Program-made: the position numbers and the translations under genes | Shown here: piece by piece, positions 56,717 through 64,000 of the stretch | Layout of the letters: every line of letters starts with the position of its first letter | How positions within the stretch are numbered: the first letter of the stretch is position 1 | Source: Xanthobacter aminoxidans | GTDB lineage: Bacteria > Pseudomonadota > Alphaproteobacteria > Rhizobiales > Xanthobacteraceae | Direction: 5' to 3' | Assembly: GCF_023571765.1 (NCBI RefSeq) | Contig: NZ_JAMJXC010000002.1 | Coordinates: 248,001-312,000 of the forward strand | Length of the DNA stretch: 64,000 nt | The notes under the pieces: generated by a model | What the model was told of the DNA's origin: nothing | The model's input: the letters and a program-made list of their open reading frames with translations, nothing else | The model's database searches: none

Positions 56717-58216
56717 TCAGATGGTCTGGTTGTATTCGCCGATGCCGGGGTGCTGGCGGAGCACACCGTCGATCTCCTTGAACATCTCGCGCATGCGGGC
56801 TTCGGAGACCGGGCTTTCCACCACCACCACCAGCTCGGGCTTGTTGGAGGAGGCGCGCAGCAGGCCCCAGGAGCCGTCCTCGCAGGTGACGCGCACGCCG
56901 TTCACCGTCACGAGGTCGCGGATCTTCTGGCCGGTAACGGTCGCGCCTTCAGCCGCCAGCTTCTCGTAATGCTCCACCACCTTGGCGACGACGCCGTACT
57001 TGGCTTCGTCCGCGCAATGGGGGGACATGGTGGGCGAGGACCAGGTCTTGGGCAGCGCCTCGCGCAGCTCGGAGAGCTTCTTGCCGGGGTTGCGGTCCAG
57101 CATGTCCAGCACGGCGATGGCGGAGACGAGGCCGTCGTCATAGCCGCGGCCCACGGGCTTGTTGAAGAAGTAGTGGCCGGACTTCTCGAAGCCCACCAGC
57201 GCGCCGGTCTCGTTCACCCGGCGCTTCATGTAGGAATGGCCGGTCTTCCAGTAGTCCGCCTTCACGCCGAGCTTGATGAGCTCGGGGTCGGTGGCGAACA
57301 GGCCGGTGGACTTCACATCCACCACGAAGGTGGAGTTGGGATAAAGCTTGGCGAGGTCGCGGGCGAGCAGCACGCCCACCTTGTCGGCGAAGATCTCCTC
57401 GCCGGTGTTGTCCACCACGCCGCAGCGGTCGCCGTCGCCGTCGAAGCCGAGGGCCACGTCCGCCTTGTGCTCCAGCACCGCGTCCCGCATAGCATGGAGC
57501 ATCTCCATGTCCTCGGGGTTCGGATTGTACTTGGGGAAGGTGTGGTCCAGCTCGGTATCGAGCGGCACCACCTCGACGCCCAGCGCCTCGAGGATCTTCG
57601 GGGCGAAGGCGCCGGCCGTGCCGTTGCCGCAGGCCACCACCGCCTTGATGGGGTGCTTCAGCTTCGGCCGGTTGGTGAGGTCCTTGATGTAGACCTCGGG
57701 GAAGTTCTCGACGAACACATAGGCGCCGCCGCCCTTCAGGTCGAACTTAGCCGACAGAACGATGTCCTTCAGCCGGCTCATCTCATCCGGTCCGAAGGTG
57801 AGCGGGCGGTTCACGCCCATCTTCACGCCGGTCCAGCCATTGTCGTTGTGCGAGGCGGTGACCATCGCCACGGCGGGAACGTCCAGCGCGAACTGGGCGA
57901 AATAGGCCATGGGCGACATGGCAAGGCCGATGTCGTGCACCTTGATGCCCGCCGCCATGAGGCCGGAGACCAGCGCCAGCTTGATGGAGGAGGAATAGGA
58001 GCGGAAGTCGTGGCCGGTGACGATCTCGGGCTTCACGCCCATCTCGTGCATCAGCGTGCCCAGGCCCATGCCGAGGGCCTGCACACCCATCAGGTTGATT
58101 TCCTTCTGGAACAACCAGCGGGCGTCATACTCCCGGAAGCCGGTCGGCTTCACCATGGGCTCGGACTCGTAGGCGTAGGTATTGGGCGTCAGGACCGGCT
58201 TCGGCGTCGGGAACAT
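56717..58216 (-). CDS. Phosphomannomutase/phosphoglucomutase
   Basis: A 499-residue alpha-D-phosphohexomutase. The active Ser is in VTASHNDNGWTGVKMG, metal binding is DGDGDRCGVV, and the sugar loop is GFEKSGHYFF. The ATG at 58216 is preferred because GGAGGA lies nine bases upstream. It interconverts 1- and 6-phosphates of mannose or glucose for exopolysaccharide and LPS precursors. It converges on higA. Confidence 0.93.
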   Translation of the reverse strand: MFPTPKPVLTPNTYAYESEPMVKPTGFREYDARWLFQKEINLMGVQALGMGLGTLMHEMGVKPEIVTGHDFRSYSSSIKLALVSGLMAAGIKVHDIGLAMSPMAYFAQFALDVPAVAMVTASHNDNGWTGVKMGVNRPLTFGPDEMSRLKDIVLSAKFDLKGGGAYVFVENFPEVYIKDLTNRPKLKHPIKAVVACGNGTAGAFAPKILEALGVEVVPLDTELDHTFPKYNPNPEDMEMLHAMRDAVLEHKADVALGFDGDGDRCGVVDNTGEEIFADKVGVLLARDLAKLYPNSTFVVDVKSTGLFATDPELIKLGVKADYWKTGHSYMKRRVNETGALVGFEKSGHYFFNKPVGRGYDDGLVSAIAVLDMLDRNPGKKLSELREALPKTWSSPTMSPHCADEAKYGVVAKVVEHYEKLAAEGATVTGQKIRDLVTVNGVRVTCEDGSWGLLRASSNKPELVVVVESPVSEARMREMFKEIDGVLRQHPGIGEYNQTI

Positions 58217-58345
58217 GGGGACCATTCCTCCGCAGGCACGCAAAATTTCGCGGTCGCGAGATAGCACGGATTCGTGACCGTACGAACGGCTGCGCTTCGG
58301 ATTAGTTCCCCTCGCAGCGGCGGCACGGTGACGCCGCCGTGGCGG

Positions 58346-60713: not shown

Positions 60714-61958
60714 TCAGTCCTCGCCCGCCTTGGCCTTGGGCAGGGGGATGGTGGAAGGCTGGGGGATCGGAGCCGCGTAATATTTGCGCTTGATAGAGCC
60801 CGTCTCGGGATTGCTGGACGCGGCGGACGACACCGGGATGCCCTGCGGCCCCACCTGCCAGCCCGGCGGCAGGCCGCCCTTCTGCGGCGCTGACGGCGGA
60901 GGGGCGGGCGCACGCGCGGCGGCGGGAGCCGGGGCACCGCCCACGGCGCCGGGGGGATAATTGGAGGGCGGATAGTTCGCGGGCGGATAGCTGGACGGCG
61001 GATATCCGGCGGGCGGGGGCGGCGCCGGCGAGGCGATGATCGGCGCTCGCGCGGCCTCGACCGGCGGCAAGGCGGGCGGGAGGGGGGGCGGCGGCTCGGC
61101 CTCGACCGGCGCCGGCTGCGGCGCGGCCTTCGGCCCGCCGAACAAGGTGGAGAAGAAGGAGGGCTGCTCCGCCGGGGCCGAGACCTGCTGCGGGGCCGGG
61201 GCATAGACGGGGGCCGCTTCCACCACCGGCGCGCTGGGCGCGGCCGACACCATCGGCGGCGCCTTGGTCGGCATGGGCGGCGCCGGCATCGGGCGCGGCG
61301 CCGGCTTGCAGATGGTCCGCCCCTTGGCGTGGCGCATCAGGTCCACATGGATGTGGTCGTAATGGAAGATGTTGGAGCCCGGCGCGAGCACCGTGGTGAA
61401 GCGCTCGCAGGCACCGGCCTGCACCTGGAGCAGGAAGCCGCGCTCCTCCGGCGTGCCCTTCCAGCCGTTCTTCACGCTGATCCAGCGGCCGTCCGCCGTG
61501 CGGAAGCCGCCGATGTCGAGGGCGTTGCCGAATGCATGCTCGGAAATCTTGGCGTTGGGATCGCCGTTCATGCCGCGGCAGGAATAGGCCGACATCTGGC
61601 TGATGGCGACGATGGGCTGGCCGAGCCACGCCAGCGCCGCCGGCTGCACCACGTCCTGCACCCACATGTCCACCTGGTAGATCACCGGGCAGGCGAGCTT
61701 GCCGGCCGGCTCCAGCACCACATTCCCTCGCGCCAGCGCGCTCACGCGGAACGGGTGGTCCATGCCGCAGGCGCCGGGGCCCTGGACGGCGGGAAGCGGC
61801 TCCATGAAGACGGACGGGACCACTCCCTTGGCCGCAAGGCATTGCTCCTCGGCCTGGGAGCGCCACGAATCGCGCTCCTCCAGGCCGAAGCGACAGCCCG
61901 AGAGGGCGCCGGCCAGAAGGAGGAGGGCGAGGAAGATGCGGGGCGTGTCGCGCGACAT
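60714..61958 (-). CDS. Extensin-like lipoprotein with proline-rich tail
   Basis: A 414-residue protein starting at 61958. A lipobox (LLLAGALSGC) predicts lipidation. The extensin C-terminal domain (PF06904 type) at about 35-240 has ISEHAFGNALDIGGF and HYDHIHVDLM, matching the metal-site order of M15-like peptidases. The last 170 residues are Pro/Ala-rich, with tandem SYPP/NYPP units (PPSSYPPANYPPSNYPP). It is probably a peptidoglycan-processing lipoprotein. Co-transcribed with the DUF429 gene. Confidence 0.88.
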   Translation of the reverse strand: MSRDTPRIFLALLLLAGALSGCRFGLEERDSWRSQAEEQCLAAKGVVPSVFMEPLPAVQGPGACGMDHPFRVSALARGNVVLEPAGKLACPVIYQVDMWVQDVVQPAALAWLGQPIVAISQMSAYSCRGMNGDPNAKISEHAFGNALDIGGFRTADGRWISVKNGWKGTPEERGFLLQVQAGACERFTTVLAPGSNIFHYDHIHVDLMRHAKGRTICKPAPRPMPAPPMPTKAPPMVSAAPSAPVVEAAPVYAPAPQQVSAPAEQPSFFSTLFGGPKAAPQPAPVEAEPPPPLPPALPPVEAARAPIIASPAPPPPAGYPPSSYPPANYPPSNYPPGAVGGAPAPAAARAPAPPPSAPQKGGLPPGWQVGPQGIPVSSAASSNPETGSIKRKYYAAPIPQPSTIPLPKAKAGED

Positions 61959-62118
61959 GGCCCCACCTTGCGGAGGCCGCCTTGCAAAGGGGTTAAAGCC
62001 CGTCGCCAAATACCGCAAAAGGAGCCGCAGCCCCTTGAAAAGACAGAACCCCACGCCCTTCCGCTACGCGATATCGCGGCGGAGGGATGGGGTTCGCAAG
62101 CGGGTGAAAATGGACGCG

Positions 62119-62138
62119 GACCGGCCGAGCGGCCGGTC
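62119..62138 (-). terminator. Hairpin between nepR and the extensin-like gene
   Basis: A perfect eight-base stem (GACCGGCC / GGCCGGTC) with a four-base loop, 78 bases past the nepR stop. No strong U-tract follows directly, so it is a weak terminator candidate. Confidence 0.4.
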
Positions 62139-62215
62139 GGGACCCTTGAACCTGGCGCGGCTGAACCTGGCGCGGTCTGAAGGGGAGAGACCTCCCCCCG
62201 ACTTCAGTCCTTGCC

Positions 62216-62437
62216 TCAGTCCTTCTTGGGCTCGGCCTTGGCGTCGGCGTCCGGGGGTGCGGCGCCATCGGCGGCGCCGTCCGGCTCGCGGCCCTCGAAG
62301 GCCGCCTGAAGACGGGCGGCGAGGCTTTGCAGCTCGTCCGGCATGTCTTCCTGGGTGTAATCGTCGAACAGTTGGCGCAGCTCGCGGCCCAGCAGATCCT
62401 GACGGGCGGAGATGTCGCGGCGGTGAGGCGTTCGCAT
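62216..62437 (-). CDS. nepR: NepR-like anti-sigma factor
   Basis: A 73-residue protein from the ATG at 62437, with GAGG about eight bases upstream. The conserved helical core LLGRELRQLFDDYTQEDMPD then ELQSLAARLQAAF has the NepR pattern (LGxxLRxxYDxxxxExxPDxx). NepR holds the stress sigma factor EcfG until phosphorylated PhyR removes it. Unlike the canonical locus, no ecfG or phyR is adjacent, so this is probably a NepR paralogue. The acidic/Ala tail is unusual. A start at 62470 is possible. Confidence 0.72.
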   Translation of the reverse strand: MRTPHRRDISARQDLLGRELRQLFDDYTQEDMPDELQSLAARLQAAFEGREPDGAADGAAPPDADAKAEPKKD

Positions 62438-62591
62438 GCCGCCTGCCTCTTTCTGATGCTGCGTCGTCATGGGGGTGTCGAGGGGGCCTTGGAAGCGTGC
62501 CGATCGCATGGCGAGGGTCTTCTGACAGACGCGGGCGGCCTCAAGATGGGACACGTCCACGTGCGTTGCAATAAGGTTCTGAACGCGGGCC

Positions 62592-62945
62592 TCAATCACG
62601 ATAGAGTCGCGACAGGTGTCCGGTATCAGGGTCGGTATGCGGGCCGGCCGCGTCCACGTCCGGTCCATCATCCACGTCGTGCCGCTTGTCGGAGCCGTCG
62701 AACGCCGCCTGGATTTCCTTGAGCAGGCGCCGCTCCTCGTCCACCACCCGCGCGCGGCGCGGGGGAAAATCGCGTCGGCTCTCGCCGGGGCCGAATTCCA
62801 CCGGGTCATAGCCGTGCGGCGCGGCATCGAGGCCCGGGGGCAAAACCCCGCCGTCCCGCGCGTCGTCTTCCGGTACGTTACCCTGGGCGCCCGCGTTCCG
62901 CATGGCAGAGCCGCCCGGCAGGGGTTCGTTTCGCAATCCGCTCAT
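62592..62945 (-). CDS. Stress-regulated, probably disordered protein of unknown function
   Basis: A 117-residue polar protein, MSGLRNEPLPGGSAMRNAGA to DTGHLSRLYRD, rich in Asp, Gly and Arg with little hydrophobic content. The start at 62945 has AGGAGGAGG immediately upstream. An exact EcfG promoter lies 36 bases before it. A short charged helix (VVDEERRLLKEIQAAF) may be the only folded part. I do not know the family. The NepR-like gene follows on the same strand 154 bases later. Confidence 0.7.
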   Translation of the reverse strand: MSGLRNEPLPGGSAMRNAGAQGNVPEDDARDGGVLPPGLDAAPHGYDPVEFGPGESRRDFPPRRARVVDEERRLLKEIQAAFDGSDKRHDVDDGPDVDAAGPHTDPDTGHLSRLYRD

Positions 62946-62980
62946 CCGCGCCTCCTCCTGCGTCTCCAGATCGCCGAGAA

Positions 62981-63005
62981 AACGCGAGGGGTGGGGATTT
63001 GTTCC
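62981..63005 (-). promoter_or_regulatory. EcfG-type general stress promoter (minus strand)
   Basis: On the minus strand GGAAC is followed by exactly 16 bases and then CGTT, an exact match to the alphaproteobacterial EcfG consensus GGAAC-N16/17-CGTT. It is 36 bases before the start of the unknown 117-residue protein and may also reach nepR. Confidence 0.8.
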
Positions 63006-63062
63006 ACGCCCGCGACTGGAAACATCCCGCCCCTCGACGTGCGCGGGAATCAGCGCCGTGCG

Positions 63063-63088
63063 GGAACAAGCGGGGCCATTGGGCAGTT
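63063..63088 (+). promoter_or_regulatory. Near-consensus EcfG-type promoter (plus strand)
   Basis: GGAAC followed by 17 bases and AGTT, one base from the EcfG consensus. It points to the DUF1328 gene starting about 105 bases downstream and is back-to-back with the minus-strand EcfG promoter. Confidence 0.5.
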
Positions 63089-63192
63089 GACGATGCGCGT
63101 CACACTTCAACGCCAAAAGCTGAGCGATATCAAAAGTGTCTTCAGCGGGCGGCGCACGTCATTCGATCAAACAAAGGCAAGGAGACACGGCC

Positions 63193-63369
63193 ATGCTGAG
63201 CTGGGCGATTACCTTTCTCATCGTCGCGCTGATCGCCGCGGTCCTGGGCTTCGGCGGCATCGCGGGTACGGCCATCGAAATCGCGAAGATCATCTTCTTC
63301 GTCGCGATCGTCCTGTTCCTCATCTCCGCGGTGATGGGACTGATGCGCCGGGGTCGAGGCCCGGTCTGA
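63193..63369 (+). CDS. DUF1328 (YtjA-like) small membrane protein
   Basis: A 58-residue protein from the ATG at 63193 with AGGAGAC upstream. Two hydrophobic segments ([20 protein letters not shown] and [19 protein letters not shown]) and the [15 protein letters not shown] link are the DUF1328 signature. These proteins are often induced by general stress in Hyphomicrobiales; function unknown. The near-consensus EcfG promoter upstream agrees with that. Confidence 0.9.
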
Positions 63370-63512
63370 TCCAGCCGAGGCGCAAAAAGAACAGGGCGGT
63401 CCGGAGGGGTCCCGGGCCGCCCTGAAGTCACTTGGAGATGGCTCCAGTGATACTTTGCTAAGGTAAAGGCACCGCTAACGCCCCTCGCCCGGACCACCGG
63501 ACCCCCAAACAA

Positions 63513-63536
63513 AAAGGCGCCCGGTTGGGCGCCTTT
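63513..63536 (-). terminator. Bidirectional terminator between DUF1328 and glycine-zipper genes
   Basis: A perfect ten-base stem (AAAGGCGCCC / GGGCGCCTTT) with loop GGTT. On the minus strand it continues as TTTTTGTTT, a strong terminator for the glycine-zipper gene; on the plus strand the T-run is shorter. A looser hairpin lies at about 63393-63425. Confidence 0.85.
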
Positions 63537-63566
63537 CGGTTGTTCAGCAGTACCGTTTCGTGCCGC

Positions 63567-63836
63567 TCAGGGGCACTGCACGCGATAGCGGTTGCCGTAG
63601 GCGTCGCGCGCCCAGCAGGCGCGGGGGGTGGTCTCGGCACCGATGATGGCGCCCGTGCCCGCGCCGATGAGGCCGCCGACGAGGGCGCCCGTGCCGGTGC
63701 CCGTGGCGGCGGCACCGATCAGCGCACCGGTGCCGGCGCCGATCGCAGCACCACCCACCGCGCGATCCTGCCGCGAATATTCGCTGCAACCGCCGAGGGC
63801 GAGTGCCATCACGCCAATCATGAGAGCCGCTTTCAT
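63567..63836 (-). CDS. Glycine-zipper lipoprotein
   Basis: An 89-residue protein from the ATG at 63836 with GGGAGAACG upstream. The lipobox ALALGGC is followed by about 50 residues of Gly/Ala repeats (GAAIGAGTGALIGAAATGTG, GALVGGLIGAGTGAIIGA), the glycine-zipper pattern. A short end with CWARDAYGNRYRVQCP follows. It is an outer-membrane-type stress lipoprotein similar to 17-kDa antigen/OsmB-like families. Confidence 0.85.
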   Translation of the reverse strand: MKAALMIGVMALALGGCSEYSRQDRAVGGAAIGAGTGALIGAAATGTGTGALVGGLIGAGTGAIIGAETTPRACWARDAYGNRYRVQCP

Positions 63837-63921
63837 CTCGTTCTCCCTTGCCCTGCCGGCAGCATGCCGGACATCCATCCTGCGCCCCGCCCCGCATCGG
63901 GGCACGAGGGCGAAACAGCAC

Positions 63922-63944
63922 GCCTGACCGCCCGTGGCGTCAGG
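63922..63944 (-). terminator. Hairpin after the partial gene at the window end
   Basis: GCCTGACCGCC faces GGCGTCAGGC with one bulged base. It is placed to end the partial minus-strand gene. Confidence 0.35.
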
Positions 63945-63953
63945 CCCGCCGCA

Positions 63954-64000
63954 CTAATCGACCACGGGCTGAGCCTTGCGCTCGTCCTCGCGGGCCGGAC
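63954..64000 (-). CDS. C-terminal end of a gene cut by the window edge
   Basis: The minus strand has an open frame entering at the edge and ending in TAG, reading PAREDERKAQPVVD. The charged, Arg-Glu-rich composition and the hairpin just beyond suggest a real C-terminus, but 14 codons are too few to name it. Confidence 0.35.
   Translation of the reverse strand, partial: PAREDERKAQPVVD

Follow-up and report, generated by a model that had tools for sequence, protein, structure and literature searches.

A displaced, diverged NepR gene with a small conserved neighbor in Xanthobacter aminoxidans

We analyzed a stretch of 64,000 nucleotides from Xanthobacter aminoxidans (the window), near the end of which a gene for a 73-residue NepR-like protein follows a gene for an acidic protein of 117 residues. 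Very probably, the general stress response core of Alphaproteobacteria is divided here, with NepR encoded by this block and ecfG and phyR in a separate half, and the block holds the only detectable anti-EcfG factor. In the partner switch as described in the literature, NepR holds EcfG until phosphorylated PhyR removes NepR (PMC4814048, PMC3892343).

The nepR block and its EcfG-type sites

The block is divergent from a gene for a small membrane protein, and its features are as follows.

62216..62437, minus strand: nepR (73 aa), encoding a diverged, predicted anti-sigma factor NepR; Pfam NepR match, clade profile, conserved ATG
62446..62452, minus strand: probable ribosome-binding site AAAGAGG of nepR, 8 nt 5′ of the 73-aa start
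62592..62945, minus strand: gene of a small acidic protein (117 aa; P0001), the upstream neighbor of nepR; open reading frame, pI 4.78
62981..63005, minus strand: EcfG-type site GGAAC-N16-CGTT, 5′ of the 117-aa gene and nepR; exact motif
63063..63088, plus strand: near-consensus EcfG-type site GGAAC-N17-AGTT, 5′ of DUF1328; motif
63193..63369, plus strand: DUF1328 small membrane protein (58 aa); Pfam PF07043, 57.6 bits (cut-off, 27)
63567-63836, minus strand: gene of a glycine-zipper protein adjoining DUF1328; Gly-zipper_YMGG, 33.1 bits

This layout agrees with the initial annotation, which had described two divergent GGAAC-type sites, an acidic open reading frame followed by a NepR-like one behind the first of them, and a DUF1328 gene behind the other.

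The promoter consensus of EcfG is GGAAC-N16/17-CGTT. The exact N16 form occurs twice in the window against 0.34 expected, and at least two occurrences were seen in 3 of 100 shuffles; there is one instance of the GGAAC-N17 pattern that allows A or C as the variable letter (0.40 expected), a count matched by 34 of 100 shuffles. Genome-wide, the exact N16/17 motif is not enriched: it has 61 sites, and its reversed pattern has 59. The motif alone is weak evidence for a promoter.

The upstream site is credible because it is conserved across orthologous loci. We examined 38 loci (20 named and 18 others), which reduce to 25 distinct ones; the named loci come from Xanthobacter (10), Aquabacter, Azorhizobium and Hyphomicrobiales/Rhizobiales bins. 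In 24 of the 25 distinct loci, the nepR strand carries an exact GGAAC-N16/17-CGTT no more than 760 bp from the NepR core, compared with 80 of 750 background windows, for which 14 of the 20 named loci were sampled. When the span is widened to 900 bp upstream of the start, all 25 carry such a site, although these loci are kin and hence not independent tests of promoter conservation. Five of them have an additional site approximately 100 bp 5′ of nepR. DUF1328 is the divergent neighbor of the block in 19 of the 25 loci, and every one of these has a loose GGAAC-N15-18-NGTT on the DUF1328 strand within 900 bp (background, 102 of 750 windows). Exact EcfG-type sites also precede phyR, ecfG and KGG in the X. 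aminoxidans genome. A consensus scan gave no sigma-70 promoter or terminator within 62000-63600, and no known RNA family reached the gathering threshold within 61900-64000.

Other sites of this type were noted in the surroundings. An exact GGAAC-N16-CGTT (58285-58309, minus strand) lies just 5′ of an open reading frame (56717-58267, minus strand) that, on reading its sequence, resembles a phosphomannomutase/phosphoglucomutase and may be a further EcfG target. Past the window end, otsB (Trehalose_PPase) and an otsA-like reading frame, named by sequence reading, adjoin the block (L016:7239-9790), and two exact GGAAC-N16-CGTT sites, one on each strand, lie by this pair (contig C26, 312373-312486). 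The block together with the ots region looks like a stress-gene island.

The 117-residue neighbor

The acidic protein had been put forward as a possible new component of the stress response, and its gene is real and conserved. It is present in 24 of the 25 distinct loci, recognized by a pattern of a DEER-type helix or the tail, and the tail itself, RL(Y/F)(R/K)(D/E), is found in 23. Between two of the loci (L018 and L019), substitutions number 8, 8 and 26 at the three codon positions over 117 codons, and this third-position excess indicates that the gene is translated. The protein has no Pfam or NCBIfam match, and no convincing solved relative of the family was found in the PDB (best E 0.48). 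A stretch DE...QAAF is shared with NepR; kinship with NepR was rejected, as it reached only 1.9% and 0.1% probability. Outside the clade, a single-sequence search of 41 genomes gave weak matches only (best E 0.024). A profile run against 297 genomes of the order, with the family thinly sampled and mostly the best 17 candidates scored, returned the X. aminoxidans genome only, and distant relatives outside the clade may be missed. So far, on this limited sampling, the protein appears to be particular to the clade.

We infer that the protein is most likely a small EcfG-induced protein and possibly a modulator of NepR. It is probably no more than a stress protein under EcfG control, with its promoter in common with nepR but no role in signaling: the predicted structure is mostly disordered (one helix at residues 70-83, mean pLDDT 60.6), the protein has no resemblance to NepR, and the neighboring DUF1328, KGG and otsBA resemble effector genes. 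Moreover, Aquabacter sp. P-9 (L035/L058) retains nepR, and the 117-aa gene was not found there. Against this, the gene stays directly 5′ of nepR in the 24 loci, both where the block adjoins ecfG and where it does not, and both the helix and the tail are conserved. That the protein takes part in signaling is possible, if somewhat doubtful.

The only NepR detected, apart from ecfG and phyR

Members of the NepR family have a two-helix core with flexible tails. The initial annotation had called the 73-residue protein NepR-like; profile comparison upholds the homology, but the protein scores just below the Pfam cut-off (PF18557, 23.1 bits, E 5.8e-5, curated cut-off 25.7). With the NCBIfam NepR model it reaches 22.9 bits, far under the cut-off of 100. 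Six of 18 orthologues pass the PF18557 cut-off and 12 fail, and one of those that pass (G011) does so only with its neighbors in the frame. A clade-only profile, built from 17 orthologues and no canonical NepR, finds the solved NepR of C. crescentus (3t0y_B) with E 1.8e-4, and hhalign of the clade profile with a profile of 14 canonical NepRs gives a probability of 92.9% (E 3.6e-7). We read the sub-threshold Pfam score as a near miss by a diverged subfamily and not as a lack of homology. Because standard NepR models just miss most of the clade, its genomes could be scored as being without NepR.

The divergence is seen in the core, where the canonical F..LL..LD is replaced by L..LA..LQ at several positions, and the clade alignment has 24 invariant columns among 17 sequences. 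A longer reading frame of 84 aa is open from 62470, but some relatives lack its ATG. We prefer the 73-aa start because its ATG is kept in 24 of the 25 distinct loci and an AAAGAG-type ribosome-binding site precedes it in most of them (it is altered in L035). A model of the 84-aa form has helices at 17-42 and 45-58; its confidence is low (mean pLDDT 61.7), which makes it only suggestive.

The X. aminoxidans genome was searched with two profiles. Pfam NepR gave the NepR gene (24 bits) and one 12-bit match with E 1.4. A mixed NepR profile of 17 rows gave the NepR gene only at E up to 10; its score of 63.5 bits is not independent, three of the rows being clade members. At the phyR-ecfG cluster, no NepR was found among open reading frames of at least 45 aa or by the whole-genome profile. 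The assembly is estimated to be 100% complete but is in 77 contigs, and a NepR in a gap is possible. There is one close EcfG match, in addition to five other ECF-type matches of 28-39% identity. The domains of EcfG and PhyR are intact by Pfam, and the genome encodes EcfG, PhyR and NepR.

We searched 61 genomes, X. aminoxidans included, and obtained 18 strong orthologues (E below 1e-21) and three weak matches. At E up to 0.1, the NepR profile matches a single protein in each of these 18 clade genomes, namely the orthologue, with 19.9-28.3 bits. The set contains 19 further genomes of the family; a canonical NepR scoring 45.8-65.3 bits is found in 16 of them, and three have none. Two near-complete genomes of the same family (G027 and G028) have no NepR and no close EcfG, with a PhyR match absent in the former and present in the latter; loss or decay of the stress-response system is possible there. 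The earlier proposal that the gene in the window is a second NepR is rejected, since it is the sole credible NepR by two profiles in its own genome and the single match in each of the 18.

The genes nepR, ecfG and phyR are usually found at one locus, as described in PMC4814048. X. aminoxidans departs from this arrangement: nepR is on contig C26, and ecfG and phyR, correctly described before as not adjacent, are both on contig C10. ecfG lies convergent to nepR and close downstream of it in nine of the 20 named loci, none of them labelled Xanthobacter, and phyR also follows in five of the nine (L044, L049, L055, L057 and L058). These five loci carry, in order, DUF1328 (divergent), the 117-aa gene (absent in L058) and nepR, then ecfG, KGG and a HisKA_2/HWE gene in convergent orientation, and then phyR, with an otsA/otsB-like gene on the DUF1328 side. 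In Aquabacter-type relatives, the block adjoins ecfG, and phyR is nearby. One locus (L048) ends just past nepR and is uninformative on ecfG. No ecfG occurs in the examined flanks of the 10 Xanthobacter loci, three of which (L042, L043 and L054) have flanks that end within approximately 2 kb.

A true EcfG is present in 12 of 13 other genomes of the genus, the exception being one that is 88% complete (G006). The nepR–ecfG distance is approximately 288, 370, 338 and 552 kb in the four genomes where the two share a contig; the first value takes the replicon as circular, with its size from NZ_CP032674.1. In eight others they are on different contigs. The nepR and ecfG matches are only 280-295 bp apart, approximately, in G014, G026 and G031, and approximately 2.1 kb apart in G019. 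In G026, phyR lies elsewhere (C1:411 kb versus 4.76 Mb), and two Azorhizobium loci have no phyR within 4 kb past KGG, so the core was broken at different points.

The gene may also be read as a NepR relative that lacks anti-EcfG function and serves another ECF sigma factor, with EcfG controlled otherwise. The diverged second helix and the five further ECF-type matches would fit this, but EcfG and PhyR (including the sigma-like domains) are intact, nepR is retained beside ecfG in several genera, and its invariant columns speak of strong conservation; we regard this reading as very improbable. Just as improbable is an additional NepR acting as an extra feedback element, for example by competing for PhyR, with the main NepR elsewhere: it could draw on the conserved upstream site, the diverged residues and the precedent of META2p0735 in M. 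extorquens (described in PMC4814048), but the genome and each of the 18 clade genomes have no other credible NepR and the orthologue sits beside ecfG in related genera. The points against the block as the NepR half of a split core are the scores below both curated cut-offs, the changed core residues, the lack of genome-wide motif enrichment, and the lack of a sigma-70-like promoter for basal NepR in the consensus scan.

Origin of the core, proposed switch and known systems

The other half of the core, on contig C10 (L017:8677-12754), comprises ecfG, KGG, a dCache-HisKA_2/HWE protein, a divergent phyR and a DUF883-like protein. Pfam finds dCache, HisKA_2 and HWE matches in the HisKA_2/HWE protein but, with E relaxed to 10, still no ATPase domain, and its reading as an active kinase was dropped for this reason. 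HHRIKN or HHRVKN is kept in this and five related loci. In S. melonis Fr1, the gene of PhyT, which was earlier named PhyP, is reported to lie at the phyR locus; the account gives this protein a membrane anchor, HRxxN and a degenerate ATPase domain, and shows that it relays phosphate from SdrG to PhyR (PMC5898713). The protein here is likewise a membrane-type sensor encoded at the phyR locus, with dCache, HHRIKN and no detectable ATPase domain. By this resemblance, it is more likely a PhyT/PhyP-like phosphotransferase and negative regulator than a kinase. The gene lies between ecfG and phyR here; in three loci from outside the order (L140, L141 and L143), such similarity follows ecfG.

We compared the PhyR proteins of 149 family genomes. 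Identity is 74-100% in 18 genomes from five genera, Xanthobacter included, and 53% or less in 120, with no match in 11. With as many as 17 candidates scored in each, none of the 18 yielded a second PhyR at E up to 1e-40. A search of 385 genomes of the class (6 candidates scored per genome, E limit 1e-75) gave six matching genomes from outside, each belonging to another order. Three from one family (f56) score 270-275 bits, above the best member of the own family outside the clade (255 bits), and the three further ones (255-257 bits) about equal it. In the PhyR tree, the clade and f56 are joined (99/95) and grouping with the rest of the own family is rejected (AU p 7e-5); the outside genomes were chosen as best PhyR matches, so this grouping is favored by sampling. 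In the EcfG tree, where the branch is long, the own-family grouping is not rejected (AU p 0.13) and the join with outside orders has a support of 86/46. The clade NepR profile scores 40.7, 39.7 and 30.5 bits with the f56 NepRs and 33.1 with that of a second family (f197); a third (f115, 21 bits) does no better than the own family (7-26 bits). The loci compared were L017, L044, L049, L055, L057 and L058 from the clade and L140-L145 from outside. A plasmid-borne PhyR donor was rejected, as all 23 matched plasmid records are below 60% identity (best 53.7%); no donor was identified.

In these comparisons, PhyR and NepR of the clade are nearer to those of one family of another order than to those of their own. 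This suggests either that the core was replaced by transfer or that paralogues were switched long ago; fast evolution is a possible cause of the pattern. A wider scenario can be drawn. The ancestor of Xanthobacter, Azorhizobium and Aquabacter would have swapped its core (at least PhyR and NepR) for that of another order, added a clade-specific small protein working with NepR, and then split the core differently in each genus, so that the anti-sigma factor would no longer be coupled to the sigma factor and would be adjusted through a separate EcfG promoter and a partner protein. We hold this scenario to be rather unlikely as a whole.

For the block as the NepR half of a split core, the switch would work as follows. 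In unstressed cells, NepR would hold EcfG. Under stress, kinases would lead to phosphorylated PhyR, which would take NepR away and free EcfG. Targets of the freed sigma factor would be phyR, ecfG, the KGG gene and DUF1328, the 117-aa gene together with nepR, and probably otsBA. EcfG dependence of the block, binding of NepR to EcfG and PhyR, and co-transcription of the 117-aa gene and nepR, which are 154 nt apart, are what we would predict from this arrangement. As EcfG would transcribe nepR, newly made NepR would reset the switch. Since nepR is separated from ecfG and preceded by an EcfG-type site of its own and by the 117-aa gene, two distinct transcription units should set the NepR:EcfG ratio. 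As no other NepR was detected, the feedback would be the ordinary NepR loop with a relocated gene and not an extra loop. A clade with a diverged, separately placed sole NepR and a new small protein offers a natural test of whether sigma and anti-sigma factor must be made together. A sole NepR encoded away from the core next to a conserved partner gene is not described in any of the titles and abstract openings listed from the open-licence literature on NepR, PhyR and EcfG in Xanthobacter and Azorhizobium, on horizontal transfer of NepR and PhyR, or on DUF1328.

The system resembles the canonical Hyphomicrobiales core of phyR and nepR-ecfG in having EcfG, PhyR and NepR, with EcfG-type sites before the core genes. 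All 27 genomes of our set that carry a canonical NepR have nepR immediately 5′ of ecfG in the same orientation (in seven of them, the strand was taken from the NepR profile search). In contrast, nepR here is diverged and far away; in related genera, it lies downstream of the 117-aa gene and faces ecfG in convergent orientation. A NepR homologue off the core locus and behind an EcfG-type promoter is also described for the paralogues of M. extorquens (PMC4814048). There, EcfG-controlled negative feedback was proposed for MexAM1_META2p0735, and the feedback idea is therefore not new; two of the paralogues are reported in that account to bind PhyR, and an interaction with EcfG was not detected. 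The M. extorquens paralogues accompany a main NepR, whereas here the sole NepR found is the displaced one. RsiA1 and RsiA2 of S. meliloti are, like the protein described here, NepR-type proteins, reported as anti-sigma factors of an EcfG factor (RpoE2); that genome is described as having two NepRs (PMC4814048), whereas one was found here.
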